From Modestobacter sp. VKM Ac-2984 (lineage in GTDB: Bacteria > Actinomycetota > Actinomycetes > Mycobacteriales > Geodermatophilaceae), in the NCBI RefSeq assembly GCF_026967985.1, contig NZ_JAPVBJ010000002.1, positions 62,001 to 126,000 of the forward strand: DNA of 64,000 bases. Reading direction: 5' to 3'. How positions within the stretch are numbered: position 1 is the first letter of the stretch; every line of letters begins with the position of its first letter. The notes below the pieces were generated by a model. It had not been told where the DNA came from. It searched no databases and worked only from the letters and a program-made list of their open reading frames with translations. This document shows, piece by piece, positions 782-25,560 of the stretch. The position numbers were made by a program, and so were the translations under genes.

Positions 782-1597
782 TCAGGCGGCCGGGGCGTGG
801 TCCCGGTTGACCAGGATGGCCAGCTGCGTCCGGGTCCGGACGTCGAGCCGGCGCATCACCGCCGTCAGGTGGCTCTTCACCGTTGCCGAGCTGAGGAACA
901 ACCGCCCGGCGATCTCCTCGTTGCTCAGCCCCTGCGCGACGAGCTCGGCCACCTCACGCTGACGCTCGGTCAGCCGGTCGAGGGCCCGGGTCACCGCGGT
1001 GGGCCGCGGCACCTCCCCGGTCAGGTGGCGCACGAGCTGACTGGTCACGGCGGCGTCGAGGGCGGGCTCCTGGCGGGCGAGCGCGCGCACCGCCTCGACC
1101 AGCCGCTGCGCGGCTGCGCGGCGCGGCAGGAAGCCGCGGACCCCGCACTGCAGGACGTCCATCAGGCTGGTACGGCTGCCGCCGTTCGCCTCGGCGAGCA
1201 CGAGCACACCGATCCCGCGCTGGCACAGCTCGCGGAGCACCGGCAGCGCGGCGCTGCCGACCAGGCTCTGCCGGACGACGACGACCCGGCTCCCCGGGCC
1301 GTCGGCGGCAGCCAGCACCTCCGCCAGGTCAGCGGTCTCGGCGACGACCGCGATGTCGGGCTGCGCCTCGAAGACCGTGCGGAGCCCGAGGCGGAAGACC
1401 TCCTGGTCCTCGCAGAGCAGCACCCGCACCAGGGGCCGGGGCGGACGCTGCGCACACGGCCGGAGGTCGGACCGGGGCGGGGCAGGAGCCGGCCCGACCA
1501 CCACGTCGTGCAGCAGGTCCCGGGCACGCGGCGGATCGGCCGGAAGAAGGCGGGCGCCGGCGCGCCGCGGATCGATCACTGGGTCGGCAAGGCTCAT
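782..1597 (-). CDS. NarL/LuxR-type response regulator without phospho-acceptor Asp
   Basis: 271 aa. The ATG at 1597 is chosen because AGGGGGAG lies just upstream; an in-frame GTG at 1723 is possible but has no such site. After an N-terminal extension of about 55 residues comes a receiver-like domain with the acidic pair E63-D64. The position where NarL proteins have the phosphorylated Asp reads VVVVRQS, with Arg at about 109. The C-terminus is a LuxR helix-turn-helix (LTERQREVAELVAQGLSNEEIA). It is therefore probably an atypical, phosphorylation-independent regulator. It is the first of two such genes, both pointing away from the polyketide operon, so cluster control is the obvious hypothesis. 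No histidine kinase lies nearby. Confidence 0.8.
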   Translation of the reverse strand: MSLADPVIDPRRAGARLLPADPPRARDLLHDVVVGPAPAPPRSDLRPCAQRPPRPLVRVLLCEDQEVFRLGLRTVFEAQPDIAVVAETADLAEVLAAADGPGSRVVVVRQSLVGSAALPVLRELCQRGIGVLVLAEANGGSRTSLMDVLQCGVRGFLPRRAAAQRLVEAVRALARQEPALDAAVTSQLVRHLTGEVPRPTAVTRALDRLTERQREVAELVAQGLSNEEIAGRLFLSSATVKSHLTAVMRRLDVRTRTQLAILVNRDHAPAA

Positions 1598-1732
1598 GCG
1601 GACTCCCCCTGTTGCTGCCGCGACGAGCGCCCCTGACCTCCCCGACGGTTCGGCGGGAGCTGCGGTGACAGAACGGTAACGGACAATCGAGTGTGGGTGT
1701 CGGTTCTCGTCCACGGAACTCACAGCCTGCGC

Positions 1733-2443
1733 TCAGGCCTGCAGGTCGCCGGCGGTGCGGTGGAAGTGGATCGCCAGCTGGGTGCGGTCCCGCAGCCCCA
1801 GCCGGCGCAGCGCCACCGTGATGTGCCCCTTGACGGTCGCCCGGCTGACCTCGAGCCGCTCGGCGATCTCCGCGTTCGTCAGGCCCTCGGCGACCAGCCG
1901 GGACACGGCCAGCTGCCGGGCGGTCAGCGCCCCGGTGGACGACGCCCGCGAGCCGTCGGCGTGCCGCGGGGCGTCGTCGAGCCGGTGCAGCAGCTCACCG
2001 GTGGCGGCCGCGTCGAGCACCACCTCGCCCTGGGCCACCGCCCGCACCCCGTCGACCAGGCGCTGCGGGCTGACCGTGGTGTGCACGTAGCCGCACGCAC
2101 CGGCCTGGAGCGCGTCGACCAGCTCGCCGCCTGCCCCGGGCTCACCCAGCAGGATCACCCGCACCCCCAGCTCGCTCAACGAGCGCACGAGCTCCGCCAC
2201 GACCGGCCCCCAGGCGCCCAGGCCGAGCACGGTGACGTCGGGCCGGAGCCGGGCGGCGAGGAGGAGCGCCTCGGCCGCCGAACCCGCGTCGGCGACCACG
2301 CGCAGGTCCGTCGCCCGGAGCAGCACCGCGCGCAGCCCCTGCCGCAGCACCTCGTGGTCGTCGCAGATCAGCACCCGGAAGGGGACGCCGTCGCTCCCGG
2401 ACAGCACCTCCGGGGCCGTGCCTGCGTACGGGTCGCCGGTCAT
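1733..2443 (-). CDS. Second atypical NarL/LuxR-type regulator
   Basis: 236 aa from ATG at 2443, with GGAG nine bases upstream; a GTG at 2533 would add 30 residues. The receiver begins FRVLICDDH (D28-D29). The P-D-x4-D motif reads PDVTVLGLG, so Gly74 replaces the phospho-acceptor Asp. The LuxR helix-turn-helix is near the C-terminus (LTARQLAVSRLVAEGLTNAEIAERL). It resembles the preceding regulator throughout, suggesting an old tandem duplication in which both copies lost the phosphorylation site. Its start is 378 bases from the polyketide operon, on the opposite strand, so the shared intergenic region may hold its targets. Confidence 0.8.
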   Translation of the reverse strand: MTGDPYAGTAPEVLSGSDGVPFRVLICDDHEVLRQGLRAVLLRATDLRVVADAGSAAEALLLAARLRPDVTVLGLGAWGPVVAELVRSLSELGVRVILLGEPGAGGELVDALQAGACGYVHTTVSPQRLVDGVRAVAQGEVVLDAAATGELLHRLDDAPRHADGSRASSTGALTARQLAVSRLVAEGLTNAEIAERLEVSRATVKGHITVALRRLGLRDRTQLAIHFHRTAGDLQA

Positions 2444-2821
2444 CCCTGTCAACTCCGCTCGTGACGGGCGCGGGGCGATCGCCTGGACACCACCGGTCTC
2501 GGAAGTTAGGGGATGACGCACGGTGAACGCCACCGCGTTGGGCGCGTTCAGCCCGAATGCGGCGCCGGTTCATACCCGGGTCGTGGTCCCTGCGCTCCAA
2601 GGTGCGCTCCGTGACCACTCCGGGTGGTGGAGGTGACCGACGGCGGGCGGGCCACCCCGCGCGTCCGGCGGGCACCGCCGCCCCCCCCTCCGGAGGACGC
2701 GCCCACCCCTCCCCCGCCCCTGGGTGCGCCCCCGGAACCGCCCGTCCGGCCGATGCCCGAGCACCCCCCGCCGCCCTAGCGTTCGCCTCGTTCGTCCGGT
2801 CCCGACGCCGTAGGAGCAGCC
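2444..2821. promoter_or_regulatory. Divergent intergenic region upstream of the polyketide operon
   Basis: 378 bases with no convincing gene. They separate the minus-strand regulator from the plus-strand polyketide operon and must hold the promoters of both. The part nearest the operon is extremely C-rich (about 2680-2775). I see no confident -35/-10 pair and no obvious operator palindrome. AGGAG just before 2822 is the ribosome-binding site of the first operon gene. Confidence 0.45.
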
Positions 2822-3148
2822 GTGCACGAGACGATGATCATCGCGAAGATGGACCCGGCCGACGCCGACGACGTGGCCGCCGTCTTCGGGCGCTACGACG
2901 CGACGTCGATGCCGCACGAGATCGGGGTGCGACACCGGTCGCTCTTCCAGTTCCACGGGCTCTACGTGCACCTGATCGGCTTCGACCGCCCCCCGGCCGA
3001 GTCCATGCAGGTCGCCCAGTCGCTGCCGGCCTTCCGTGCCGTGAGCGAGGACCTCAAGCCCTACATCGAGGCCTACAGCCCCACTTGGCGCTCACCGCAG
3101 GACGCGATGGCCCGCCGCTTCTACCACTGGACGTCCTCGCCCGAGTGA
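2822..3148 (+). CDS. TcmI-family polyketide cyclase (WhiE ORFVII-like)
   Basis: 108 aa, GTG start with AGGAG upstream. The size and the phrases DADDVAAVF, PHEIGVRHRSLFQFHGLYVHLI and SEDLKPYIEAYSPTWRSPQDAMARRFYHW are those of the small ferredoxin-like TcmI/SchA-CurD cyclases of aromatic polyketide and spore-pigment clusters. The family closes later rings of a poly-beta-ketone intermediate. It is the first gene of the operon, with a 32-base gap before the next gene. The family is confident; the exact ring closed cannot be told from sequence. Confidence 0.88.
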   Translation: MHETMIIAKMDPADADDVAAVFGRYDATSMPHEIGVRHRSLFQFHGLYVHLIGFDRPPAESMQVAQSLPAFRAVSEDLKPYIEAYSPTWRSPQDAMARRFYHWTSSPE

Positions 3149-3180: not shown

Positions 3181-4911
3181 ATGACACGTTCCTCGATGAC
3201 CACGCCCGGGGTGCCCGCACCCCGGGTAGCGGCGGACTGGACCTCCTGCCCCGCCTGCGGGTGGCTGCTGTACCGGAAGCGACTCGAGCGCGATCTGCAC
3301 GTCTGCCCGGAGTGTGACGCGCACCTCCGGCTCGGCGCCCGGGCCCGCATCGACCAGCTCGTCGACCCCGGCAGCTTCACCGAGACGGTCTTCCCGCAGC
3401 GCGACGGGGACCCGCTCGCCTTCACCGACCTGCGCCCCTACCCCGACCGGCTGCGCGACGCCGCGCACCGCTCCGGGGAGTCCGAGGCGGTCGTGGTGGG
3501 GGTGGCCACGATCGGCGGCACCCCCGTGACCCTGGCCGTCATGGACTTCGGCTTCCTCGGCGGCAGCATGGGCGTGGAGGTCGGGCGCCGGGTGAGCGGC
3601 GCCGCCGCGCTGGCGCTCGAGCGCGGGCTGCCGCTGCTGGCCGTGTGCGCCAGCGGTGGGGCCCGGATGCAGGAGGGCGTCTTCTCCCTCTTCCAGATGG
3701 CCCGGGTCAGCGAGGCCTTCGGCCGGCTCCACGAGGCGGGGTCGTTCTCCGTCTGCGTGCTCACCGACCCCACCTACGGGGGCGTGTCCGCGTCGTTCGC
3801 CACCCTCGCCTCGGTCCTCGTCGGTGAGCGTGGTGCGCACGTGGGCTTCGCCGGCCCGCGGGTCGTGCAGGAGACGATCCGGGCCGAGCTCCCCGACGAC
3901 TTCCAGACCGCGGAGTTCCTGCTGGCCCACGGGCTGGTCGACCGGGTGGAGAGCCGGGCCGAGCTGCGCCCGCTGCTGGCCCGGCTGCTGGCCCTGCACG
4001 CGCCGGACAGGCCACGGGGAGCAGCCGAGGACGAGCCGGACGCCCCCTCCGCAGACGACACACCGCCGCTGGACAGCGACCCGTGGGAGGTCGTCCAGCG
4101 GGCCAGGGTCGTCGAGCGGCCGACCACCCTGGACTACCTGCACACCGCCTTCGACGACTTCGTCGAGCTGCACGGCGACCGCGCCTTCGGCGACGACCCG
4201 GCCCTGGTCGGCGGGGTGGCCTCGATCGGCGGACACTCCGTCGTCGTCCTCGGGCACGAGAAGGGGCACTCGGTCCGCGAACGGGTGGCCCACCAGTTCG
4301 GGATGCCCCACCCGGAGGGCTACCGCAAGGCGATGCGGCTGCTCGGGCACGCGGAGACGCACTCGATGCCGGTCGTCACGCTGGTCGACACCCCGGGCGC
4401 CCACCCGGGACCCGAGGCGGAGGAGCACGGCCAGTCCCACGCGATCGCCGAGATCATCATGCGCAGCAGCCGGCTGCGGGTGCCGGTGGTCTCGGTGGTG
4501 ACCGGGGAGGGCGGCAGCGGCGGCGCACTGGCGCTGTGCACCTCCGACCGGCTGCTGGTGCTGGAGAACGCCTACCTGTCGGTGATCAGCCCCGAGGGCT
4601 GCGCCGCCATCCTGTGGCGGACGGCCACCGCCGCACCGACCGCCGCCCGGGCCATGCGGCTGGGCGCGGCCCACCTGTACCGGTCCGGCATCGCCACCGC
4701 CGTGGTCCCCGAGCCCCCGGGCGGGGCCCACACCGACCCCGCCGCGGCGGCGCGGCTGCTCCGCGCCGCGATCCGCCGGGAGCTGGACGAGCTCGCCGGC
4801 CAGGACGTCGAGACCCTGCTCGCGGCCCGGTCGCGGCGGTTCTCCCAGATCGACGTCGACGACGGCCGGCCGGTGCGGGCCCTGCAGCCCGTCCTGCCGG
4901 TGGAGCAGTGA
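3181..4911 (+). CDS. accDA: Acetyl-CoA carboxylase carboxyltransferase, AccD-AccA fused in one chain
   Basis: 576 aa, ATG start. The N-terminal half is the beta subunit, with a four-Cys zinc ribbon (C23-C26 and C42-C45), CASGGARMQEGVFSL and GGVSASFA. After a linker at about 280-300, the alpha-subunit half starts with LDYLHTAFDDFVELHGDRAF and carries TLVDTPGAHPG and TGEGGSGGALAL. In E. coli these halves are separate proteins. The product transfers CO2 from carboxybiotin to acetyl-CoA, giving malonyl-CoA. The next two genes supply BCCP and biotin carboxylase, so the operon encodes a complete ACC, presumably to feed the polyketide synthase. It overlaps the BCCP gene by four bases. Confidence 0.92.
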   Translation: MTRSSMTTPGVPAPRVAADWTSCPACGWLLYRKRLERDLHVCPECDAHLRLGARARIDQLVDPGSFTETVFPQRDGDPLAFTDLRPYPDRLRDAAHRSGESEAVVVGVATIGGTPVTLAVMDFGFLGGSMGVEVGRRVSGAAALALERGLPLLAVCASGGARMQEGVFSLFQMARVSEAFGRLHEAGSFSVCVLTDPTYGGVSASFATLASVLVGERGAHVGFAGPRVVQETIRAELPDDFQTAEFLLAHGLVDRVESRAELRPLLARLLALHAPDRPRGAAEDEPDAPSADDTPPLDSDPWEVVQRARVVERPTTLDYLHTAFDDFVELHGDRAFGDDPALVGGVASIGGHSVVVLGHEKGHSVRERVAHQFGMPHPEGYRKAMRLLGHAETHSMPVVTLVDTPGAHPGPEAEEHGQSHAIAEIIMRSSRLRVPVVSVVTGEGGSGGALALCTSDRLLVLENAYLSVISPEGCAAILWRTATAAPTAARAMRLGAAHLYRSGIATAVVPEPPGGAHTDPAAAARLLRAAIRRELDELAGQDVETLLAARSRRFSQIDVDDGRPVRALQPVLPVEQ

Positions 4912-5438
4912 CCGTGCGCCCCGGGGAGCTCGCCCAGCGAGCCGAGGTGCCCGGCCCCCCGGCCGGGGAGGACGACGCGGTCCGCTCGCTGCGCGAGGAC
5001 GTGCTGCACCTGGCCCGGACCCTGCCCGCGGGGCTGCGCCGGCTCACCGTGCGCAGCGGGGACAGCTCGATCGAGGTCGAGTGGGCCGCCGAGGACCACG
5101 CGGCGGTCGACACGCCCGGCGTCCCCGGGCAGCGCAGTCTCATCCTCGCGACCGACCCCGCCGCCGAACCGGAGGTGCCGGCGGACCTCACCGCCGTCCA
5201 CGCGCCCCTGGTCGGCACGTTCTACGCGGCGCCCGCACCGGACGCCGGGCCGTTCGTGCAGGTCGGGGACGAGGTCGAGGCCGGTCAGACGCTCGGGATC
5301 GTCGAGGCGATGAAGCTGATGAACCCGATCGTGGCCGACGAACCGGGCGTGGTCGCCCAGGTCGTCGTCGGGGACGCCGAGTCGGTCGAGTACGGGCAGG
5401 TGCTGATGTACCTGCGCTGCGACGGGGCCCCCCGGTGA
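4908..5438 (+). CDS. accB: Biotin carboxyl carrier protein of acetyl-CoA carboxylase
   Basis: 176 aa. The GTG at 4908 overlaps the upstream stop as GTGA, with GGAG a few bases before it, indicating translational coupling. The C-terminal biotinyl domain (about residues 100-176) carries the biotin-Lys motif VEAMKLMNPI, and HAPLVGTFYAAPAPDAGPFV is the usual entry to that domain. The N-terminal half is a variable linker. It carries biotin between the carboxylase encoded downstream and the carboxyltransferase encoded upstream. Confidence 0.92.
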   Translation: MTVRPGELAQRAEVPGPPAGEDDAVRSLREDVLHLARTLPAGLRRLTVRSGDSSIEVEWAAEDHAAVDTPGVPGQRSLILATDPAAEPEVPADLTAVHAPLVGTFYAAPAPDAGPFVQVGDEVEAGQTLGIVEAMKLMNPIVADEPGVVAQVVVGDAESVEYGQVLMYLRCDGAPR

Positions 5439-6985
5439 TCAGCCGGCTGCTCATCGCCAACCGCGGTGAGATCGCCGTCCGGATCGCCCGCGCCTGCCGG
5501 GAGCTCGGCATCGAGGTGGTCGCCGCCTGCTCCACCCCCGACCGGGGTTCCGCGGTCGCGGAGATGGCCGACGAGTCCGTCCACATCGGTCCCGCCGCGC
5601 CACGGCACAGCTACCTGCACGTGCCCAACCTGATCGAGGCGGCGCTGCGCACCGGCGCGGACGCCGTGCACCCCGGGTACGGCTTCCTCTCCGAGGACCC
5701 CGACTTCGCCGAGATCTGCCAGAAGGAGGGGCTCACCTTCGTCGGCCCGCCGCCGGAGGTCATGCAGCAGATGGGCAACAAGGCCACGGCCCGGCGGCTG
5801 ATGACCGACGCCGGCCTGCCGCTGCTGCCCGGGGTCGTCGAGCCCGTCCGGACGGCGGACGAGGGCCGCGCCATCGCCGACGCGATCGGCTACCCGGTGA
5901 TCATCAAGGCCGTCGCCGGCGGAGGTGGCCGCGGGATGACCGTGGTGACCGACCCGGCGGACTTCGCCGAGGCCTTCGCCAGCACCCGGGCGATCGCCCG
6001 GGCGGTCTTCCGCGACGCCACCGTCTACGTGGAGCGCTACCTGACCCGCGCCCGGCACGTGGAGGTCCAGGTCCTCTGCGACGCGCACGGCTCGGGCGTC
6101 TCGCTCGGCGAGCGGGACTGCTCCCTCCAGCGGCGGCACCAGAAGCTGCTGGAGGAGGGCCCGGCCGGTCACCTCTCCCCCGAACAGCGGGAGGAGCTGG
6201 GGGCGCTGGCCGTGCAGGGCGCGCTCTCGGTCGGCTTCACCGGGGCCGGCACCGTCGAGTTCCTCGTCGACGCGGCGGGCGCGTACTTCATGGAGATGAA
6301 CGCGCGGATCCAGGTCGAGCACCCGGTCACCGAGATGCTCACCGGCGTCGACCTGGTCCGCGAGCAGCTGCTGGTCGCCGGCGGGCGGCGGCTCCAGCTG
6401 CGGCAGGAGGACGTCGTCCCGCGCGGGGCCGCGATCGAGTGCCGGATCAACGCCGAGGACCCCACCCGCGGCTTCGCCCCGGCACCCGGGCACCTGGACG
6501 TCCTGCGCCCGCCGGGCGGCCCGTGGACGCGGTTCGACACCGGCTACCGGCAGGGCGACGACGTCAGCCCGCACTACGACTCGCTGCTGGGCAAGCTCAT
6601 CGTCTGGGCACCCGACCGCGACCAGGCGATCCGGCGGATGGACCGCGCGCTGGCCGAGCTGCGGGTCGAGGGCCCCGGCCTGCGCACCACCGTCGACCTG
6701 CACCGGGCCCTGCTGCGCCATCCCGACGTGTGCGCCGACCGCCACGACATCGAGTTCCTCGACCGCGCGCTGCCCGACCTGCTCGTGCAGGCCGCGACCC
6801 TCGGCGAGCGCTCGATCACCGGGCTCCCGGTCCCGCACGGCCCCCTCCAACTCGTCCCGGCCCCCGAGCAGCACCGGCCGGAGGCTCCCGCCCCTGCCCC
6901 GTCCCAGGAAGGAACACCGCCATGTCCGCCGCACCCATGTCCGACGCACCCATGTCCCACGCCCCGTTCACCCTCGACGACCTGA
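5435..6985 (+). CDS. accC: Biotin carboxylase subunit of acetyl-CoA carboxylase
   Basis: 516 aa from a GTG that overlaps the BCCP stop as GTGA. The N-terminus LLIANRGEIAVRIARACRELG, the ATP-grasp glycine loop AVAGGGGRGM, MEMNARIQVEHPVTEM and the C-terminal lid are diagnostic. It carboxylates biotin on BCCP using ATP and bicarbonate. Family members usually run about 450 residues. Here a Pro-rich tail of roughly 60 residues follows, and its last 21 codons overlap the ACP gene in another frame. The tail is probably dispensable. Confidence 0.92.
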   Translation: MISRLLIANRGEIAVRIARACRELGIEVVAACSTPDRGSAVAEMADESVHIGPAAPRHSYLHVPNLIEAALRTGADAVHPGYGFLSEDPDFAEICQKEGLTFVGPPPEVMQQMGNKATARRLMTDAGLPLLPGVVEPVRTADEGRAIADAIGYPVIIKAVAGGGGRGMTVVTDPADFAEAFASTRAIARAVFRDATVYVERYLTRARHVEVQVLCDAHGSGVSLGERDCSLQRRHQKLLEEGPAGHLSPEQREELGALAVQGALSVGFTGAGTVEFLVDAAGAYFMEMNARIQVEHPVTEMLTGVDLVREQLLVAGGRRLQLRQEDVVPRGAAIECRINAEDPTRGFAPAPGHLDVLRPPGGPWTRFDTGYRQGDDVSPHYDSLLGKLIVWAPDRDQAIRRMDRALAELRVEGPGLRTTVDLHRALLRHPDVCADRHDIEFLDRALPDLLVQAATLGERSITGLPVPHGPLQLVPAPEQHRPEAPAPAPSQEGTPPCPPHPCPTHPCPTPRSPSTT

Positions 6986-7206
6986 TGGACCTGCTGTCGG
7001 AGAAGGCCGGTCTCCCGCCGGAGTCGCGCACCACCGACCCCGACGCGCACTTCTCCGACATCGGGCTGGACTCGCTGGCCTTCCTCTCCATGCAGACGGA
7101 GCTGCACGACCGCTTCGGCACCGAGATGCCCGACGACGACGCGGAGCGCTACACGCTCGGCGACATCGTCGAGAAGGTCTGCGCTGCCCAGTCCCAGCCG
7201 GCCTGA
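6922..7206 (+). CDS. Acyl carrier protein of the type II polyketide synthase
   Basis: 94 aa from the ATG at 6922, which has AGGAAGGAA eight bases upstream; ATGs at 6937 and 6952 are alternatives. The phosphopantetheine site is DIGLDSLAFL, with Ser in the usual DSL context. The first 15 residues are a Met-Ser-Ala-Pro repeat. The start lies 64 bases inside the accC reading frame. The protein carries the growing polyketide chain for the KS pair encoded downstream. A hairpin repeat begins at its stop codon. No phosphopantetheinyl transferase gene is present in the window. Confidence 0.92.
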   Translation: MSAAPMSDAPMSHAPFTLDDLMDLLSEKAGLPPESRTTDPDAHFSDIGLDSLAFLSMQTELHDRFGTEMPDDDAERYTLGDIVEKVCAAQSQPA

Positions 7207-7265
7207 AGAAGGACCCCGTCCTCCTCACGCCTCGCGAGCTCGGCGCGAGCCTCTGGACGGGGCCG
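7205..7265. repeat. 61-base dispersed imperfect palindrome, copy A
   Basis: It starts within the TGA stop of the ACP gene. Outer arms CCCCGTCC (7214-7221) and GGACGGGG (7255-7262) pair, as do inner arms CTCGCG (7231-7236) and CGCGAG (7244-7249). Copy B at 30541-30601 has the same length and matches at 53 of 61 positions by my count. Here it lies inside the polyketide operon, between ACP and aromatase, where the RNA hairpin could cause partial termination or set mRNA stability. Confidence 0.75.
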
Positions 7266-7305
7266 AACCACACCGTCACATCCCCTCGACCACCGGAGGA
7301 CCCAG

Positions 7306-7800
7306 ATGAGCGCTCCCGAGAACACCGGTCGGACCGTCGGCCACACCGACAACTCGATCTTCATCGACGCCGACATCGACCACGTGTGGCGGATGACCAA
7401 CGACCTGCCGTCCTGGCCGGACCTGTTCACCGAGTACGCCGAGGTCGAGGTGCTCGCGCACACCGGCTCGACCTTCCGGTTCCGGCTCAAGATGCACCCC
7501 GACGAGAGCGGCCGGGTCTGGAGCTGGGTCTCCGAGCGGACGCTCGACGAGGCCCGGCACGAGGTGGTGGCCCACCGCGTCGAGCCCGGCCCCTTCGAGT
7601 TCATGGACATCCGGTGGAGCTACGCCCCGGAGGGCACCGGCACCCGGATGCGGTGGGTGCAGGACTTCCGGATGCGCCCGGAGGCCCCCATCGACACCGC
7701 GGGCATGACCGAGCGGATCGACGCCAACAGCAAGGTCCAGATGGCTGTCATCCGGGACAAGGTGGAGGCGGCAGCCCGGCATCCGGAGCCTGCTCGGTGA
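7306..7800 (+). CDS. Aromatase/cyclase, SRPBCC (START-like) fold, WhiE ORFVI/TcmN-N type
   Basis: 164 aa, ATG with GGAGG upstream. The pattern NSIFIDADIDHVWRMTNDLPSWPDLFTEYAEVEVL, then the RFRLKMHP strand and WSYAPEGTGTRMRWVQDFRM, is that of single-domain aromatase/cyclases of pigment and tetracenomycin-type clusters. These fold the unreduced poly-beta-ketone and form the first aromatic ring or rings. A single-domain enzyme and the lack of a ketoreductase both suggest a non-reduced backbone. The stop overlaps the next gene as GTGA. Confidence 0.88.
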   Translation: MSAPENTGRTVGHTDNSIFIDADIDHVWRMTNDLPSWPDLFTEYAEVEVLAHTGSTFRFRLKMHPDESGRVWSWVSERTLDEARHEVVAHRVEPGPFEFMDIRWSYAPEGTGTRMRWVQDFRMRPEAPIDTAGMTERIDANSKVQMAVIRDKVEAAARHPEPAR

Positions 7801-8771
7801 CCGGCTCCCGCACCGGGGCGGCCGTCGTCCTCCCGGGCGAGTGGACCACCGCACCCGGTGCCCTGGAGCCGTGGCTGCCCGACCCGGTCGCCCGGGACGT
7901 CGTGGCCGAGGCCTCCGACGTCCTGGGCCGGGACGTCGTCGCGTGGTGGGGCGACCCGCTCAACCTGCACGACCCGGCGGTGGCCCACCTGGCCTCCCTC
8001 GTGGTCGGGGTGGCGGGCGCCCGCAGCCTGGCGCACGCCGGCCTGCAGCCGGTCGCCCTCGCCGGGCACGGCGTCGGCGAGTACGCAGCGCTGGTGGCCG
8101 CCGGCGCCCTGCGCCTGGACCAGGTGGTCGACCTCGTCGACTGCCGGGCCGAGATGCTGGCGCACTCACCGCGCCCGTCCTCCGCCGGGATGGCCGCCGT
8201 CGTGGGGCCGGGGGCCGGCGACGTCGCCCGCGCGGTGATCGCGGACCTGGGGGACACCTCGGGCCTGGCGATCGCCGCGTACGACGGCCCGGCCCAGGTG
8301 GTGCTCTCCGGCTGGTGCCCGGAACTGGCCCATGCCCGGGAGGCCGTCCTCGCCGCCGGCCTGGACCTGGTCCGGTTGCCGGGGCGGGCCGCCGGCCACG
8401 GCCCGCTGATGCAGTCGATCGCCGCCCGCCTGACCGACTCGTTCGACGAGCTGGACTGGTCCGTCCCGGACGTGCCCGTCCTGTCCAACGTCGACGCCCG
8501 GCCCTCCCGCGACCCGGAGCACCTGGCCGGCTGCCTGCACCGGCACCTGACGTCGCCGGTGCAGTGGGAGGCCACCGCGCACGCCCTGGTGGAGGAGGCG
8601 GGAGCGACCTGGGTCGTCGAGGTCGGCGCCGTCCCGACCCTGGGTCCGCTCATCCGCCAGGTCCACCCCGACCTCCCGGTCCGCCTGGCCCCCGGACCGG
8701 GGCTGCCCGACCCGCCCGCACGTCCAGCACACGCGCTCACCGGCGCTGCGCCCAGCAGAGGAGAGAGATGA
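7797..8771 (+). CDS. Malonyl-CoA:ACP transacylase-like protein lacking the catalytic Ser
   Basis: 324 aa from GTG at 7797, coupled to the upstream stop. It aligns in size and motifs with FabD-type acyltransferases, but the nucleophile motif GHSxGE reads GHGVGE, with Gly at residue 92. The oxyanion/Gln motif PGQGSQ reads PGEWTT. The Arg (R117) and the active-site His (GHGPLM, H201) remain, and these positions match E. coli FabD numbering closely. The codon is GGC, so one base change cannot restore Ser without also altering the motif context. It is probably inactive as a transacylase; a structural or chain-recognition role is inference. Confidence 0.8.
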   Translation: MTGSRTGAAVVLPGEWTTAPGALEPWLPDPVARDVVAEASDVLGRDVVAWWGDPLNLHDPAVAHLASLVVGVAGARSLAHAGLQPVALAGHGVGEYAALVAAGALRLDQVVDLVDCRAEMLAHSPRPSSAGMAAVVGPGAGDVARAVIADLGDTSGLAIAAYDGPAQVVLSGWCPELAHAREAVLAAGLDLVRLPGRAAGHGPLMQSIAARLTDSFDELDWSVPDVPVLSNVDARPSRDPEHLAGCLHRHLTSPVQWEATAHALVEEAGATWVVEVGAVPTLGPLIRQVHPDLPVRLAPGPGLPDPPARPAHALTGAAPSRGER

Positions 8772-9199
8772 CCACCATCCAGCACCCCACGACGAAGGTG
8801 CACTGCGGGCCCACCGTGTCCCGGTCCGACGCCGCCCCCAACCGCCGTCGCGGCGGTGACATCCGGGTGCTGCTCTCGCCGACCAGCGTGGGCGCCACCG
8901 CCGGGTTCATGGGCACGCTCACCCTGGAGCCGGGAGAGGTGGTGACCGAGCACTGGCACCCGTACTCCGAGGAGTTCCTCTACTGCGTCTCCGGCGACGT
9001 CCTGGTCACGCTGGACGGTGAGGAGCGCCGGCTGGGCGGCGAGTCGGCGCTGCACATCCCGATCGGGGTCCGGCACCGGATCGTCAACGACGGCGCCGAG
9101 CCGGCGTTCTTCGTCTTCCTGGCCGGCCCGCTGGCCCCCCGGCCGGAGCTCGGCCACGTCGACACCGAGCCCTCGCCGGGCTCCATGGGCGTCCGGTGA
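8768..9199 (+). CDS. Cupin-domain protein of polyketide clusters (WhiE ORFII-like)
   Basis: 143 aa, ATG at 8768 overlapping the previous stop (ATGA) with AGAGGAGAG upstream. The single cupin has the first motif [21 protein letters not shown], with metal-ligand His/His/Glu, and a second motif [14 protein letters not shown]. Small cupins next to KS genes are a regular part of whiE-type spore-pigment clusters, where they are thought to assist cyclisation or oxidation. The exact reaction is not known. The stop overlaps the KS-alpha start. Confidence 0.85.
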
Positions 9200-10500
9200 G
9201 CACCACCGGGCGCACCACCGGGCGCCGGGTCGTCATCACCGGGATCGGCGTCGTCGCACCCGGTTCGATGGGCCGCGAGGGCTTCTGGGAGATGATCACC
9301 GCCGGCCGGACGGCGACCCGGCGGATCACCTTCTTCGACCCCGGCCGGTTCCGGTCCCAGGTCGCCGCCGAGGTCGACTTCGACGGGCGCCGGCAGGGCC
9401 TGACGGCGCACGAGGTGTTCCGCAACGACCGCTTCGTGCAGATGGCCATGGTCGCCGCCGACGAGGCGGTCGCCGACAGCGGGCTGGCGTTGGGCAGCGG
9501 AGCCCTGGAGGGCCCCGATCCCGACCGGGTGGGCGTCGTCCTCGGCAGCGCCGTCGGGGCCACCATGCGGCTGGAGAACGAGTACGTGGCGGTCAGCGAC
9601 GCCGGCACGCACTGGCTGGTCGACCCGCAGTACGCCTCGCAGTTCCTGCACCACGCCCTGGTGCCCAGCTGCGGCGCCACCGAGCTCGCCGTGCGCTTCG
9701 GTGCCCACGGGCCGGCCACCGTGGTCTCCACCGGCTGCACCTCCGGCATCGACGCCGTGGGCTACGGCAGCCAGCTGATCGAGGACGGCGACGCCGACGT
9801 CGTCCTCGCCGGGGCCAGCGACGCCCCCATCTCCCCGATCTCCATGGCCTGCTTCGACACGATCCGGGCGACCACCGGCAACAACGACGACCCGGCGCAC
9901 GCCGCTCGGCCGTTCGACGCCCGCCGCGACGGTTTCGTGATGGGCGAGGGCTCCGCGGTGCTGGTGCTGGAGGAGCTCGAGCACGCCCGCCGGCGGGGCG
10001 CGGACGTCTACTGCGAGGTCAGCGGCTACGCCAACCGGTGCAACGCCCACCACATGACCGGGCTGCGCCCCGACGGGGTGGAGATGGCCGAGGCCATCCG
10101 GCTGGCGCTGGACCAGGGCCGGATCGACGCCGACGAGGTGGGCTACGTCAACGCGCACGGCTCGGGGACCAAGCAGAACGACCGGCACGAGACGGCCGCG
10201 GTGAAGTTGAGCCTCGGGCCGACCGCCCAGCGGGTCTCGATGAGCTCGATCAAGTCGATGATCGGCCACTCGCTGGGCGCGATCGGCTCGATCGAGATCG
10301 CCGCCACCGCGCTCGCGGTGCAGCGCGGGGTGGTGCCCCCGACGGCGAACTACGCGGTGCCCGACCCCGAGTGCGACCTGGACTACGTGCCCAACACCGC
10401 CCGGGAGCAGAAGGTCGACGTCGCGCTGTCGGTGGGCAGCGGGTTCGGCGGCTTCCAGTCCGCGATCGTGCTCGCCCACCCGACGAGGAGGACACCATGA
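9196..10500 (+). CDS. Type II polyketide synthase ketosynthase alpha (KS-alpha)
   Basis: 434 aa, GTG overlapping the cupin stop. It has the full catalytic set: active-site Cys181 in [15 protein letters not shown], then [11 protein letters not shown] and the His motif [14 protein letters not shown]. Length and motifs are standard for KS-alpha. Together with the KS-beta encoded next it condenses malonyl-ACP units into a poly-beta-ketone. The end overlaps the next gene as ATGA, the usual coupling of KS-alpha and KS-beta made in equal amounts. Confidence 0.96.
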
Positions 10501-11738
10501 CGGAACTGGTGGTGACCGGGATCGGCGTGGTCGCGCCGACCGGCGTGGGCGTGGAGGCGCACTGGTCCTCCCTGGTGCGGGGCGAGCCGGCCATCCGGCC
10601 GATCGTCGGCTTCGACCCGGCGCAGTACGGCGTCTCCCTCGCCGGGCAGGTGACCGGCTTCGTCCCCACCGACCACGTCGACCCACGGCTGATGGTGCAG
10701 ACCGACCGGTGGACCTGGATGTCGCTGGCGGCGGCCACGCTCGCCGCGCAGGACGCCGGGTACAGCGCACCGGAGGACGCCTACGCGACCTCGGTGTTCC
10801 TGGCCGCGGGCTCCGGCGGCAACGAGTTCAGCCAGCACGAGATCCAGGGGCTGTGGGCCAAGGGACCCAAGTCGGTCGGCGCGTACCAGTCGATCGCCTG
10901 GTTCTACGCGGCCAGCACCGGCCAGATCTCCATCCGGGACGGCTACAAGGGGCCCTCCGGGGTCGTGGTGAGCGAGGGGGCGGGCGGGCTGGACAGCATC
11001 GGCTGGGCCCGCCGGGTGGTGCGCCGGGGTACCCCGGCGGTGCTGGTCGGGGGCACCGAGGCCGGGGTGACCCCGTACGCCCTGCTCTGCCAGGCGACCA
11101 GCGGCCGGCTCTCCACGGCGACGGCCCCCGAGGACGCCTACAAGCCGTTCGACCGGCGCGCCTCGGGCCACGTCGTCGGCGAGGGCGGCGCGATCCTGCT
11201 GGTCGAGGAGCCCGGCGCCGCCCGGGCCCGCGGGGTGGAGCGGGTGTGGGGGGAGGTGGCCGGCCACGGCGCCACGCACGACGCCCACCACCACGCCGAT
11301 GCCGCTCCCGACGCCCGGCAGTACGCCCGGGCCATCCAGCTCTCCCTCGCCGACGCCGGGATCACCCCGGAGGAGGTCGACCTGGTCCTCGCCGACGGGG
11401 CCGGCGTGCCGGAGCTGGACGCCCTCGAGCTGGAGGCGCTGCAGCGGGTGTTCGGCGGGCGCGCCGACCCGGTCCCGGTGACCGCGCCGTCGTCCTGGAC
11501 CGGCCGGCTGATGGCCGGCGGCTCGGCGCTCAACGTGGCCACCGGACTGCTGGCCATGCGGGACGGGATCGTGCCCGGCACCGCGTACCTCGACGACCCC
11601 GTCGACGCCCCCGGCCTCGACCTCGTCCAGCACAGCCGCGCCCAGCAGGTCGAGACGGTCGTCGTCCTCGCCCGGGGGTTCGGCGGCTTCAACAGCAGCC
11701 TGGTGCTGCGCCGGCCCGCCGAGGAGAGGACGTCATGA
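10497..11738 (+). CDS. Type II polyketide synthase chain-length factor (KS-beta)
   Basis: 413 aa, ATG at 10497 within an ATGA overlap; GAGGAGGAC precedes it. It is homologous to the preceding protein but has no active-site Cys: the segment reads [13 protein letters not shown]. In most antibiotic-type chain-length factors this position is Gln (EQAGGLD); here it is Gly161. The His motif is also replaced ([10 protein letters not shown], then [11 protein letters not shown]). It forms a dimer with KS-alpha and sets chain length. Because of the Gln-to-Gly change, chain length cannot be guessed by motif. Confidence 0.93.
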
Positions 11739-14182
11739 CGACAGTGCAGGAGGCGACGGGGGAGGACGCCGCCACGGCCACCGCCGCCGAGCCGGGCGGC
11801 GCGGTCCGCACGCTGCTGCGGATGCGGGTGCGGGAGGGCTGCGAGGAGCGGTTCGAGGAGGCGTGGCGCACGGCGGCGGTCCAGATCGCCGGGGAGCCGG
11901 GCAACGTCAAGCAGGAGCTGATGCGGGACGCCGACGACGCCCGCACCTTCCTGATCGTCGGCGAGTGGGCCGACCGGGCTGCGGCGGACGCGTTCGGCCG
12001 GTCCGCCGCCCGGGAGGCGCTGACCGCCTCGCTCCGCGACCTGCGGGAGGACGCCGACCGCAGCACCTACGAGATCCGCTACGGCATCGCCGGGGGCGAG
12101 CAGGCCTCGCACGTCCGGGTGGACATCAGCACCCGGGTGGCCCCGGGCGAGGAGGAGGCGTTCGAGCGGGCGTACGCCATCGTCACCGACCGGCTGCGCG
12201 GGACGCCCGGCCTGATCCGGGAGGAGCTGCTCCGGGAACCGGGCTCGGACGTCTTCCACATCTTCGCCGAGTGGGAGTCCGACCAGGACTTCCGCAACTG
12301 GGTGGACGACCCCTCGCACGCCGACCAGAGCGGGCCGCTGATCCGCTGGCTGTCGGTCTTCTTCGAGCGCAAGCTCTACGAGATCCGCTTCCGCCCGCAG
12401 GAGGCCGGGGTCCGCGGGGTCCGGGCCACCCGCCCCGCGCCGGCTCCTGCGGCGCCGGAGACCACCAGCGTGCCGGCGCCCCGGACCGAACCGGCGGTCG
12501 CGGCCACCCCTCCGCCGGTGGAGGTCCCGACCCGGACCGCGTGCGAGGTGCTGGTGGTCGGCGCGGGCCCGACCGGGCTGACCGCGGCGATCGAGCTGGC
12601 CCGGCGGGGCATCGCCGTCCGGGTGGTGGACAAGCGCAGCGGGCCCGCCGCCCAGGCGGACAAGGCCATCGGCGTGCACTGCCGGACGATGGAGATCTGG
12701 GAGGACCAGGGCATCGTCACCGAGGCGATGGACGCCGGCAGCTGGCTGCACGGGCAGACCGTGTTCGTCAACGGCAAGCAGACCCACCAGGTCGACTGGT
12801 CCGGCCTGGAAGAGCTGCCCTACGCCCACCTGGGGCTGCCGCAGTACGAGACCGAGCGGATCCTCGGGGACCGGCTGACCTCCCTCGGCGTCCCGGTCGA
12901 CCGGGGGGTCGAGCTCGCCGGCTTCACCCAGGACGACGACGGCGTGACCGCCGAGCTCGTCGACGCGGCGGGCAACCGGTCGAGCACCCGCGCGCAGTAC
13001 CTGGTCGGCGCCGACGGGTCGGGGAGCGCGGTCCGGGAGCAGCTCGGCCTCACCTTCGACGGCGGCCTGTCGATGTTCCCGCAGCTGTTCATGCTCGGGG
13101 ACGTCGACGTCGACTGGGAGATGCCGCCGGGGCACCTGGTGCGCTGGGTGCGGATCGAGGAGGACGGCGACTTCACCGGGATGCTGGTGTGCGTGCCGCT
13201 CAAGGGCCACCACCGCTACCGGGTGGCGACGCTGGCACCGCAGCGGCTGCAGAAGACGATCGGCAGCGGCGTCGTGCCGCCCGGGTTCTGGAAGGAGTAC
13301 GACCCACCGGGGCTCGCCGACATCCAGGCCGCGATCGACGACCTCGGCCCGGCCGGGACGACGGCGAGCAACCTGCGCTGGTCGTCGATCTTCCGGGTCA
13401 AGCACGGCATCGTCGACCGGTACCGCACCGGCCGGGTCTTCGTCGCCGGGGACGCCGCCCACCTGCACCCGCCGGCCGGGGGCCAGGGCATGAACACCGG
13501 GATCCAGGACGCCTGGAACCTGGCCTGGAAGGTCGCCCTCGCCGTCCGCGGGCAGGCCGCACCCGGCCTGCTGGACAGCTACGAGGCCGAGCGGCGGCCC
13601 GCCGGCAAGGCGATCGTCGACCGCGCCGTGGCCGTCGCGTTCACCGACGAGATGGACATGGACGACGAGCGGGCGCAGTTCCTGCTCGAGATGCAGATGA
13701 CGATGAACTACGCCGGCAGCCCGCTGGTCGGGGAGGCCACCGGCCCGGCCGGGTTCACCGGCGGGCCGTTGCCCGGGCACCGGGCACCGGACGTGCTCGG
13801 GCTGCGCCGGTTCGGGGTCGCGCACGACCTGCGGCTGTTCGACCTCACCCGGGGCACGCACGCCACCCTGCTGCTGACCGCCGGGGACGGGACGAGCGCC
13901 GAGGAGCTGCAGGCCCTGGAGGAGCTGGCCGCGTCCGTCCGCCGGTCGACCGGGGGCCAGGTGCGCCCCTACCTGGTCGCCGGTCCGGACGTCGCCGTCC
14001 CGCCGTTGGTGGACCTGCCGGTCCTGCGGGACGCCCGGGGTGCGTTCGCCGCCGCCTACGGCACGGGCGGGGCGGGGGCGGCGGCCTACCTGGTGCGGCC
14101 CGACGGGCACGTCGGCTTCCGCACCCGACCGGTCAGCGAGCCGGCCCTGCGCGAGCACCTGGCGGGGGTGTTCACCGGCTGA
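11735..14182 (+). CDS. Fusion protein: two ABM monooxygenase domains plus FAD-dependent aromatic hydroxylase
   Basis: 815 aa, ATG overlapping the KS-beta stop. Residues about 25-110 and 120-225 are two antibiotic-biosynthesis-monooxygenase (dimeric alpha/beta barrel) domains; both contain the phrase YEIR near their ends. A Pro/Ala-rich linker (about 232-268) leads to a p-hydroxybenzoate-hydroxylase-type domain with GAGPTG after residue 275, an ADGSGSAVRE segment and GRVFVAGDAAHLHPPAGGQGMN near residue 567. WhiE-type clusters encode ABM-like and FAD hydroxylase functions; here they form one chain that probably oxidises or hydroxylates the aromatic product. It is the last gene of the operon and is followed by a terminator. 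Confidence 0.9.
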   Translation: MTTVQEATGEDAATATAAEPGGAVRTLLRMRVREGCEERFEEAWRTAAVQIAGEPGNVKQELMRDADDARTFLIVGEWADRAAADAFGRSAAREALTASLRDLREDADRSTYEIRYGIAGGEQASHVRVDISTRVAPGEEEAFERAYAIVTDRLRGTPGLIREELLREPGSDVFHIFAEWESDQDFRNWVDDPSHADQSGPLIRWLSVFFERKLYEIRFRPQEAGVRGVRATRPAPAPAAPETTSVPAPRTEPAVAATPPPVEVPTRTACEVLVVGAGPTGLTAAIELARRGIAVRVVDKRSGPAAQADKAIGVHCRTMEIWEDQGIVTEAMDAGSWLHGQTVFVNGKQTHQVDWSGLEELPYAHLGLPQYETERILGDRLTSLGVPVDRGVELAGFTQDDDGVTAELVDAAGNRSSTRAQYLVGADGSGSAVREQLGLTFDGGLSMFPQLFMLGDVDVDWEMPPGHLVRWVRIEEDGDFTGMLVCVPLKGHHRYRVATLAPQRLQKTIGSGVVPPGFWKEYDPPGLADIQAAIDDLGPAGTTASNLRWSSIFRVKHGIVDRYRTGRVFVAGDAAHLHPPAGGQGMNTGIQDAWNLAWKVALAVRGQAAPGLLDSYEAERRPAGKAIVDRAVAVAFTDEMDMDDERAQFLLEMQMTMNYAGSPLVGEATGPAGFTGGPLPGHRAPDVLGLRRFGVAHDLRLFDLTRGTHATLLLTAGDGTSAEELQALEELAASVRRSTGGQVRPYLVAGPDVAVPPLVDLPVLRDARGAFAAAYGTGGAGAAAYLVRPDGHVGFRTRPVSEPALREHLAGVFTG

Positions 14183-23173: not shown

Positions 23174-24184
23174 TCAGCGCAGCGGTGAGCTCAGCCGGAC
23201 CGTCAGGCCGTCCGGCCCGTTGACCAGGTCGACGTGGTCCCAGAGCTTGCGGGCCAGCCACAGGCCCATCCCGCCCTGGGAGAGGTCGTCGCCGTGCGCC
23301 GGCTGGAAACCGGCCAGCGGGTCGGCGAACCCGGTGCCGCAGTCGCTGATGGTGCAGACCACCCGGTCGGTCGAGGCCCACACCCGGGCCGCCACCGGCG
23401 GGGTGCCGTGCCGGAACGCGTTGGCCGCGATCTCGCTGACCGCCAGGTGCAGGTCGGTGCCCTGGTCCCGGTCGGGCACGCAGGTGGCGAGCACCGCGGC
23501 CAGCTGGTGCCGCAGGGGCGCCAGCGCCCGGGCGCCGTCGACGGCGAACAGCGGCGGACCGTCCTCCATCGGCTCGCGCAGCAACGGCAGCGTGGCCAGG
23601 TACTGCGCCGGCGGCAGGTAGTCCTCGCTCGCCACCCGGACGCCGTCGACGAGCAGGTGCGGATGCGTCTGCCCGGCGCTCGCCACGACGTCGGTGGACA
23701 GCTGCCGCTGGTCGTAGACGCACAGCGCGTCCAACGGGGACCGGGCGAGCAGGTCGTTGACCACCGACTCGTACCGCTGCCCCTCCCGCCAGGTGCGGGG
23801 CATCGGACCGAAGTCCGGTGTGCCCAGGATCCGGAGCGCCCCCGACGGCGACGCGGCGGCCTGGTCCAGCAGCCGACGGGTGGCGATGACGGCGTCCGGC
23901 GCACGGGCGCCGCGCATCGCGACGCGGGGGTCGCTGAGCAGCCGGGTGTCGGGGGCCCCCACGGCCCCGCGCAGCAGCTCGGCCGTCTCCTCCGCACAGG
24001 ACAGCACCGTCACGTCCCCGGCGGCGAGGCCGGCCTCCAGCCACGGGACGGCCCCGGCGAGCAGCGCGTCGTCGGAGCCGATCACGAGTGCGGTGTGGCC
24101 GCGCGTCGGCGCGGGCGGGGAGCTTGGCGCCTCGTCCAGGGCGTGCTGCACCGACGGCGCAGGACGAGCTCCGAGAACGGACAC
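23174..24184 (-). CDS. MEDS-domain sensor with anti-sigma-type HATPase domain
   Basis: 336 aa from GTG at 24184 (AGAGG seven bases upstream). Residues about 30-185 match MEDS/DcmR-type sensory domains (HTALVIGSDDALLAGAVPWLEAGLAAGDVTVLSC; RYESVVNDLLARSPLDALCVYD). Residues about 225-336 are a GHKL ATPase of the SpoIIAB/RsbW kind, with N box AVSEIAANAFRHG, G1 ISDCGTGFADP and G2 GGMGLWLARKL. Such MEDS-HATPase proteins are common in actinobacteria and presumably control an anti-sigma antagonist such as the nearby STAS protein. The signal is unknown. Confidence 0.82.
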   Translation of the reverse strand: MSVLGARPAPSVQHALDEAPSSPPAPTRGHTALVIGSDDALLAGAVPWLEAGLAAGDVTVLSCAEETAELLRGAVGAPDTRLLSDPRVAMRGARAPDAVIATRRLLDQAAASPSGALRILGTPDFGPMPRTWREGQRYESVVNDLLARSPLDALCVYDQRQLSTDVVASAGQTHPHLLVDGVRVASEDYLPPAQYLATLPLLREPMEDGPPLFAVDGARALAPLRHQLAAVLATCVPDRDQGTDLHLAVSEIAANAFRHGTPPVAARVWASTDRVVCTISDCGTGFADPLAGFQPAHGDDLSQGGMGLWLARKLWDHVDLVNGPDGLTVRLSSPLR

Positions 24185-24357
24185 GACACCTCTCGACCGA
24201 CGGTGGACCCTGGGAACTGCTGGCATTCTCAATCACCCACCCCTGGTCTCGGCAACCGCCCCCCGGAACAGCACTCACCCGACCGGGTGAACCGCCGCAC
24301 AGTGGCACGACCGGCGACCGGCCGCAGGCGCTGCGTGAGGGCGGCACGCGTGTCGGC

Positions 24358-25560
24358 TCAGCGGCGGCGACCGGCCAGGGCGTCCAGCGCCGCGCGGTCC
24401 AGCCCGGTGGCCGACTCGACCTCGGCGACGTCCAGCGCACCGCAGTCCAGGCCACGGAGCACCACGGTGGCCAGCGCCCGGGCCGTGGCCGGCTCGTCGA
24501 GCACCCCGCCCTCCACCCGGCTGACGTAGCCGGCCAGCCGTGCCGCGGCAGCCGGCAGGGCTGCCCGGAAGAACGCGTAGGTGGCGAGGTAGCGGGTGAC
24601 CAGCTGCGCCGGGTGCAGGTCCCAGCCCTGGTAGAAGCCGCGCTCCAGTGCCCGGCGGACCAGCCCCGCGTGCAGCTGCCAGGCCTCGTGCACCTGGGTG
24701 GTCGTGCCGACGGGCAGCACGTTGGTCGAGCCGTCGACCGCGCGGGCCCCGGTGCCGGCCACCGCCACCTGCATGGCCTGCTTGGCGGCGTCGGCCGCGG
24801 GGTGGTCGGAGGACTGGTGGGCCGCGGCGATGCCCAGGGCGGCGCTGTAGTCGTAGGTGCCGTAGTGCAGGCCGACCACCCGGCCGGCGCCGGCGTGCAG
24901 CATCCGGGCCAGCGTCGTCGTCCCGTCGGCACCCAGCACCGCCTGCGGTGTCTCCACCTGCAGCTCCAGGTCCAGCGTCAGCCCGCTGGCCTGCTCCAGG
25001 GCGTCCAGCACCGGCAGGAACGCGGCGACCTGCTCGACCGCGGTCACCTTGGGCAGCGTGACGACGGCCCGCTCCCGACCGGCCCCGGCCAGGCCGGTGA
25101 GGAACAGGTCCAGGGAGCGCACCCCGCGGCGCCGGGTCGGCTCCTCCAACGACTTGGCCCGCACCCCGAGGAAGGGCGGCAGGACGGTCTCGGCGGCGAG
25201 CACCGCGGCGGCCGCGGTGACGTCGCCGTCCTCGGCGTCCGGGGGGCCGCGGTAGCCGTCCTCGGCGTCGACCCGCAGGTCCTCGACCGGTTCGGTGGCC
25301 AGCTTGGCCCGCACCCGGGGCAGCACCTGCTCGACCAGGCCGGCGTCCAGGCCGAGGTCGGGGAGGCCGTGCTCGTCCAGCGCAGCCAGCGCCGCGGCAC
25401 CCCAGGAGGAGACCAACCCGGGGACGACGGCGTCGGCGGGCACGTAGCAGGTGTGCACCGGCTGCCGGGCCGACGACTCCCCCGGGTAGGCGGCCAGCCG
25501 GGCGGCGTCCACGGGCGCCAGCCGCCGATCGAGCTCGTCGTACAGCTCTGCGGGGATCAT
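24358..25560 (-). CDS. DUF6986 family, citrate-lyase/HpcH-like TIM barrel, linked to urate catabolism
   Basis: 400 aa, ATG start. It is related to HpcH/HpaI aldolase and malate/citryl-CoA lyases: LRVDAEDGYRG, a central VTLPKVTAVEQV, LELQVETPQAVL and GLHYGTYDYSAALGIA are the acidic and metal-binding barrel segments. I recognise it as DUF6986, which often neighbours ureide genes in actinobacteria. Its start is only 20 bases from that of uraD on the other strand, so both promoters overlap. A reaction on a ureide-derived two- to four-carbon acid is inference. Confidence 0.75.
   Translation of the reverse strand: MIPAELYDELDRRLAPVDAARLAAYPGESSARQPVHTCYVPADAVVPGLVSSWGAAALAALDEHGLPDLGLDAGLVEQVLPRVRAKLATEPVEDLRVDAEDGYRGPPDAEDGDVTAAAAVLAAETVLPPFLGVRAKSLEEPTRRRGVRSLDLFLTGLAGAGRERAVVTLPKVTAVEQVAAFLPVLDALEQASGLTLDLELQVETPQAVLGADGTTTLARMLHAGAGRVVGLHYGTYDYSAALGIAAAHQSSDHPAADAAKQAMQVAVAGTGARAVDGSTNVLPVGTTTQVHEAWQLHAGLVRRALERGFYQGWDLHPAQLVTRYLATYAFFRAALPAAAARLAGYVSRVEGGVLDEPATARALATVVLRGLDCGALDVAEVESATGLDRAALDALAGRRR

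Follow-up and report, generated by a model that had tools for sequence, protein, structure and literature searches.

A tandem pair of Asp-less NarL-type regulators linked to a type II polyketide synthase operon in Geodermatophilaceae

INTRODUCTION

How can a response regulator be switched when the aspartate on which it would be phosphorylated is missing from its receiver domain? This question is raised by two adjacent genes of Modestobacter sp. VKM Ac-2984 (genome size 4.56 Mb), here called gene1 and gene2, which lie divergently to a type II polyketide synthase (PKS) operon. The way in which regulators with dead receivers are switched is termed a mystery in the available part of a 2025 review (PMC12632262), and in a partial literature collection no paper was found on gene1, gene2 or the regulation of this cluster. 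The genes are located in a stretch of 64,000 nucleotides, in the following called the window, which corresponds to positions 62001-126000 of its contig. For the analysis of such a switch the locus represents a naturally replicated set, as the sister pair and its neighbouring operon recur in 34 genomes, together with a single candidate operator that is strongly conserved. The small size of the proteins and the 378-bp fragment between gene2 and the operon make the question directly testable, and the answer could reveal how pigmented soil and rock bacteria switch on a conserved aromatic polyketide.

RESULTS

Domains and active-site residues of the two regulators

The coordinates of all features are compiled in Table 1. 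The ATG codons at 1597 and 2443 were chosen as the starts of gene1 and gene2, though the open frames extend to 1723 and 2533, respectively; the chosen ATGs are preceded by AGGGGGAG- and GGAG-type ribosome sites. Gene2 is 94-95% identical to its closest relatives in Modestobacter (Geodermatophilaceae). According to Pfam and AF2 both proteins comprise a receiver fold and a LuxR-type HTH, for which the GerE matches are clear (2.7e-18 for gene1, 2.8e-14 for gene2). The Response_reg score of gene2 (36.3 bits) is above the cut-off of 30.2 bits and that of gene1 (28.7 bits) below it, i.e. the gene1 receiver is sub-threshold in Pfam. The AF2 monomer models predict intact receivers for gene1 and gene2 (block-mean pLDDT 76-98) and place Arg109 of gene1 and Gly74 of gene2 where strand 3 ends, which is the usual location of the phospho-Asp. 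LiaR, VraR, ChrA and NarL are the top fold matches of the models.

Table 1. Features of the regulator locus and the divergent PKS operon (window coordinates)
Feature	Coordinates	Strand	Basis
gene1, NarL-type regulator, Asp-less receiver, 271 aa	782..1597	minus	Pfam, NarL alignment, AF2
Arg109 codon of gene1 (NarL Asp59 place)	1271..1273	minus	NarL alignment
gene2, NarL-type regulator, Asp-less receiver, 236 aa	1733..2443	minus	Pfam, NarL alignment, AF2
Gly74 codon of gene2 (NarL Asp59 place)	2222..2224	minus	NarL alignment
Ribosome site of gene2, conserved	2453..2460	minus	aligned promoter regions
GAAG (2502-2505) and CGCCAC (2528-2533) blocks, possible gene2 promoter	2502..2533	minus	conservation
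TTCATACCC, candidate operator	2569..2577		longest conserved run of the divergent region
GGCCG (2748-2752) and CCTAGCGT (2775-2782) blocks, possible PKS operon promoter	2748..2782	plus	conservation
Polyketide cyclase (PF04673), first operon gene	2822..3148	plus	domain search
Acetyl-CoA carboxylase subunits	3181..6985	plus	carboxyltransferase 3181-4911, biotin carrier 4908-5438, biotin carboxylase 5435-6985
ACP, aromatase/cyclase-type polyketide cyclase, acyltransferase and cupin genes (putative starts)	6439..9199	plus	domain search
Ketosynthase alpha, cluster marker	9196..10500	plus	homology
Second ketosynthase (chain length factor type) and monooxygenase frame	10497..14182	plus	domain search

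In an alignment with NarL, Arg109 and Gly74 take the place of Asp59. The place of Ser87 is occupied by Ala in gene1 and Gly in gene2, and that of Lys109 by Arg and Thr, respectively, so that three of the five active-site residues are gone in both proteins. The acidic pair is retained as ED in gene1 and DD in gene2. Thus, the first-pass annotation of the window was accurate in reporting the loss of the phospho-acceptor Asp, as its numbering of R109 and G74 is exact with the ATG starts at 1597 and 2443 and both residues align to NarL Asp59; the acidic pairs and the LuxR-type HTH, described there as intact, are likewise seen in the NarL alignment and the GerE matches. Neither protein possesses the Asp, Ser/Thr and Lys that define a two-component receiver in the strict sense, and the missing residues rule out control through phosphorylation of the Asp.

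The conservation of these positions was assessed in 30 of the 34 pairs described below, namely those with stored loci. At the Asp59 place gene1 has Arg in 29 sequences and Gly in one, and gene2 has Gly in all 30, which assigns all 30 pairs to the class of NarL-type regulators with Asp-less receivers. At the Lys place Arg is found in 30/30 gene1 sequences, and Thr (25), Ala (3), Ser (1) or Val (1) in gene2. In addition, an acidic residue is located one past the Ser/Thr place, in gene1 Glu (29) or Asp (1) and in gene2 Glu in all 30 (29 by script; L075, with LMGE, by eye). At this position Glu or Asp is present in none of 91 Asp-bearing homologs, and in true receivers the residue past the Ser/Thr is usually small, which leaves the phosphorylation site open (PMC12632262, available part). 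As the added acid is common to gene1 and gene2, the sequences suggest that remodelling of the pocket preceded the divergence of the pair. Arg at the Asp place is by itself not novel, since it is noted for 63 Asp-less receivers in the part of PMC4395418 available to us.

Over 30 rows each, 82 residues of gene1 and 77 of gene2 are invariant. Among 11 genomes of the genus the median dN/dS was 0.31 for the receiver and 0.12 for the HTH of gene1, and 0.28 and 0.22, respectively, for gene2. Sequencing error or chance as the origin of the unusual residues is ruled out by the loss of the Asp in 30/30 pairs, its presence in 91 of 99 homologs and the purifying selection.

Within the own genome, 16 of the 20 NarL-type matches with a locus retain the Asp, a count that leaves aside two of 22 matches with partial query coverage (184-304 and 204-304) and no locus. 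The other four are the pair and two near-identical NarL-type genes on different contigs (L015, L017), which have Glu at the phospho-Asp and Ala/Met at the switch places and represent a second kind of Asp-less regulator in this genome.

Linkage to the PKS genes and origin of the pair

Orthologs of gene2 (at least 54% identity) are present in 34 of 112 family genomes from five genera, and gene1 adjoins in all 34; of the 112, 96 reach a completeness of at least 90%. The ketosynthase (at least 85% identity) was found in 35 of the 112. All 34 genomes with gene2 carry it on the same contig at a distance of 5.7-7.1 kb, and none of the 77 genomes without a ketosynthase at this threshold has a gene2 ortholog. 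In the 35th ketosynthase genome (G001) the contig stops inside the cyclase gene, and no gene2 ortholog was found elsewhere in it. The order gene1-gene2-cyclase-carboxylase-ketosynthase is identical in 15/15 named loci. One of these 77 genomes, G088, has another cluster with its own pair of type II ketosynthases (63% identity; L152:6778-10590), beside which a gene that looks SARP-like by eye stands in place of the Asp-less pair.

Gene1 also occurs alone, in five copies distributed over four genomes, all of which contain the pair as well. No PKS query genes were found in the 12-16 kb surrounding these solo copies. One of them (L153:6551-9610) adjoins genes for a PAS-GGDEF and a MEDS/HATPase protein, and another (L154:7700-10469) is located near an EAL gene.

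In a tree of 132 rows, calculated by a quick method with midpoint rooting and including 16 of the 30 aligned pairs, gene1 (solo copies included) and gene2 form sister clades (SH-aLRT 98), which are together nested among Asp-bearing NarL-type regulators (support 97). The Asp is present in 91 of the 99 other homologs, and five of the eight exceptions are the solo gene1 copies. The simplest reading of sister clades nested among Asp-bearing regulators would thus be that one gene was duplicated in tandem a single time in the lineage leading to these genera.

Absence of a neighbouring HATPase_c domain

A profile search of the whole genome for PF02518 (HATPase_c) gave no match on the contig to the left of the pair. 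The nearest domain lies 20.8 kb from gene2 at window position 23183 (contig 85183) in a MEDS/HATPase protein, which also dismisses a kinase of the PF02518 type concealed to the left of the window, as there is no such domain on the contig before 85183. With PF02518 as the kinase marker, no kinase gene thus lies alongside the pair. Among the Asp-bearing NarL-type paralogs, 14 of 16 have a HATPase_c domain within 500 bp; the four Asp-less genes and the other two Asp-bearing paralogs have none within 20 kb. The earlier statements that the pair lies beside the PKS operon and has no kinase gene nearby therefore stand, the former now for 34 genomes.

The divergent region and the PKS operon

In the region between gene2 and the operon (2444-2821), TTCATACCC is the longest run of columns with at least 90% conservation among 30 aligned regions. 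A run of nine was reached in 0 of 10000 column shuffles, a procedure which ignores relatedness. Both TTCATACCC and CCTAGCGT are exact in 28 of the 30 regions; two genomes lack the exact 9-mer TTCATACCC. In nine of the 30, TTCATACCC extends into the perfect inverted repeat TACCCGGGTA, which could be bound by a dimeric LuxR-type HTH. Alternatively, the conserved block could serve as a promoter element or be recognized by a different protein. In the own genome the extended 14-mer GTTCATACCCNNGT is matched exactly at a single site and, with one mismatch, at two sites as compared to two for the reversed control; on this basis a wider regulon in the own genome was rejected.

Considering the 15 named loci, the 9-mer is present in the divergent region of 14 and missing in L082. 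Three loci have a second site: in L083 and L088 it precedes the gene of a neighbouring ABC transporter ATPase, and in L085 it follows gene1. The 10-mer GTTCATACCC is found 180-195 bp before the ABC transporter ATPase gene at L083:13928 and L088:13837, both from Geodermatophilus genomes. Ten loci have this gene, and the eight in which the 10-mer is absent before it belong to Modestobacter or relatives and include the own genome. The link of the conserved block to the ABC transporter ATPase is suggestive only.

The monooxygenase frame at the end of the operon (10709-14182) encodes two ABM domains followed by one FAD_binding_3 domain and, by this domain order, has the look of a fused oxygenase for polyketide tailoring. 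In the part of PMC3462128 available, PKMiner assigns one type II cluster to Geodermatophilus obscurus with a predicted pentangular polyphenol as product, the class also assigned to one of two Streptomyces coelicolor clusters. The cluster may therefore be of the whiE-like chemical kind, and a pigment-type polyketide is as likely a product as an antibiotic. Against this, in a comparison of 100 genomes including G. obscurus, Geodermatophilus is absent from the genera with a whiE-like pathway that are named in the available part of PMC4255298.

DISCUSSION

The pair has been retained side by side, next to the same PKS genes, by soil and rock bacteria of five genera and is probably a working phosphate-free switch. 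Our preferred reading, to which we give nearly an even chance of being correct, is that gene1 and gene2 are co-inherited, phosphorylation-independent, cluster-situated regulators which would act at 2444-2821 in both homodimeric and heterodimeric (gene1-gene2) form. The receivers are predicted to fold still, yet phosphorylation of the Asp would be impossible. The rebuilt active site, with Arg or Gly for Asp, the added acid and Arg or Thr for Lys, most likely fixes one dimer-forming state. In this form the proteins would bind within the divergent region, probably at the candidate operator TTCATACCC, and the presumed targets would be the PKS operon as well as gene1 and gene2 themselves. Activity would then be set by the amounts of gene1 and gene2 made. 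As the sister genes are always kept together at this locus, a heterodimer in addition to homodimers is most likely, in the manner of BldM and WhiI at whiE. These orphan, atypical NarL/FixJ regulators form a heterodimer by which the type II PKS pigment genes of the divergent whiE locus are controlled (PMC4125116, available part). The first-pass annotation does not name this precedent, which by anatomy is the best one and fits gene1 and gene2 at least as well as the ligand idea. The lack of a BldM-type site and the two of 16 Asp-bearing paralogs without a nearby kinase speak against the dimer reading. Against it also count the solo copies of gene1, which indicate that gene1 is at least usable apart from gene2.

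The alternative, which takes up the ligand idea of the first-pass annotation, is that one or both pseudo-receivers bind an end product or intermediate of the PKS pathway, which would alter DNA binding in a feedback as for JadR1 and RedZ. That the regulators are Asp-less, free of a kinase, located beside a biosynthetic operon and strictly linked to one pathway is consistent with this analogy, and the DNA binding of JadR1 and RedZ is indeed inhibited by pathway end products (PMC12632262, available part). A small-molecule test gave, however, no support for such control of PapR6 (same source), and the solo copies of gene1 have no PKS query gene nearby. We consider ligand control possible and rather doubtful, and rank it behind the dimer reading because the partner pair never varies; both can be true. 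An unlikely, more elaborate scenario would combine them. A phosphate-blind ancestor, in which the acid gained at the mouth of the dead active site served as phosphate stand-in, would have been duplicated in tandem into the halves of a dedicated heterodimeric switch, and with the split into Arg and Gly one partner would be locked and the other would read the polyketide or a precursor. If true, a conserved aromatic polyketide would be sensed as the pathway product in five genera by a pair that works without phosphate.

Some other chemistry in the receiver appears improbable to us, be it oxidation of the Cys that precedes the acidic pair, phosphorylation at Arg109 or at a Ser/Thr, or binding of c-di-GMP. 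The Cys is indeed found in 30/30 sequences of gene1 and of gene2, and a second one in 29/30 of gene1, but the same Cys occurs in 13 of 91 Asp-bearing homologs and is hence not special. Arg at the Asp place has been flagged in the 63 Asp-less receivers mentioned above as a possible site of arginine phosphorylation (PMC4395418, available part). For c-di-GMP, the position of two solo gene1 copies beside or near GGDEF or EAL genes is set against the fate of the VpsT-type motif, which is found in 0/30 gene2 and in only 1/30 gene1 sequences, there near the row start and outside the receiver; VpsT-like binding was rejected for this reason. Finally, decay of both genes into relics with drifting receivers, as the weak Pfam score of the gene1 receiver might indicate, is hardly credible in view of the invariant residues, the purifying selection and the fixed gene order in all 15 named loci.

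RedZ has a LuxR-type output, and JadR1 and RedZ are each encoded by single genes. Gene1 and gene2 resemble both in being atypical, cluster-situated and adjacent to biosynthetic genes, as they lie inside the pathway cluster in all 34 genomes. Ligand binding has been demonstrated for JadR1 and RedZ, whereas gene1 and gene2 are known here from sequence alone. The c-di-GMP motif of the VpsT type is W[FLM][TS]R. VpsT of Vibrio cholerae, which is among the fold matches of gene1, likewise combines a LuxR-type output with an atypical receiver, but the motif is absent from gene2 and from gene1 of the window. NarL, LiaR and VraR, the best matches in sequence and fold, have the same domain order as gene1 and gene2; their phosphorylation site is the very Asp that the pair has lost. 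JadR1 is of the OmpR type according to the available part of PMC6627628, whereas gene1 and gene2 are of the NarL type. The atypical regulators PapR6 and VmsT similarly control secondary metabolite pathways by a receiver mechanism that is unexplained; compared by description only, they are not presented as a tandem sister pair in the part of PMC12632262 available.

An ortholog of a known degenerate regulator was also considered for the pair and rejected: in a comparison with 394 class genomes, two of them from the own family and one of these the own genome, the five candidates scored per genome included no match comparable to those within the family (about 40% identity at best), and the class-wide matches, none of them a named regulator, retain all five active-site residues. 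With BldM and WhiI the pair shares the composition of two NarL/FixJ-type regulators at a divergent type II PKS locus and independence from phosphate control, the latter here deduced from the residues (PMC4125116). Gene1 and gene2 are in tandem, whereas bldM and whiI are not described as such in the available part of that paper. The pockets differ as well: that of BldM is retained and that of WhiI is short of the Lys and one acidic residue, whereas gene1 and gene2 have lost Asp, Ser/Thr and Lys and keep the acidic pair. When up to three mismatches were allowed, a search for the Group I consensus of BldM revealed no site in 2444-2821 and no excess in the whole window (11 sites, 11.9 expected). 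As the pair is not specially close to known degenerate regulators and a BldM site is lacking, BldM-WhiI serves as an analogy only. Elsewhere in the window, at 24275-24290 between the MEDS/HATPase gene (23174-24232) and the gene at 24358-25560, the sequence TCACCCGACCGGGTGA agrees with the Group I consensus of BldM (PMC4125116) at every position.
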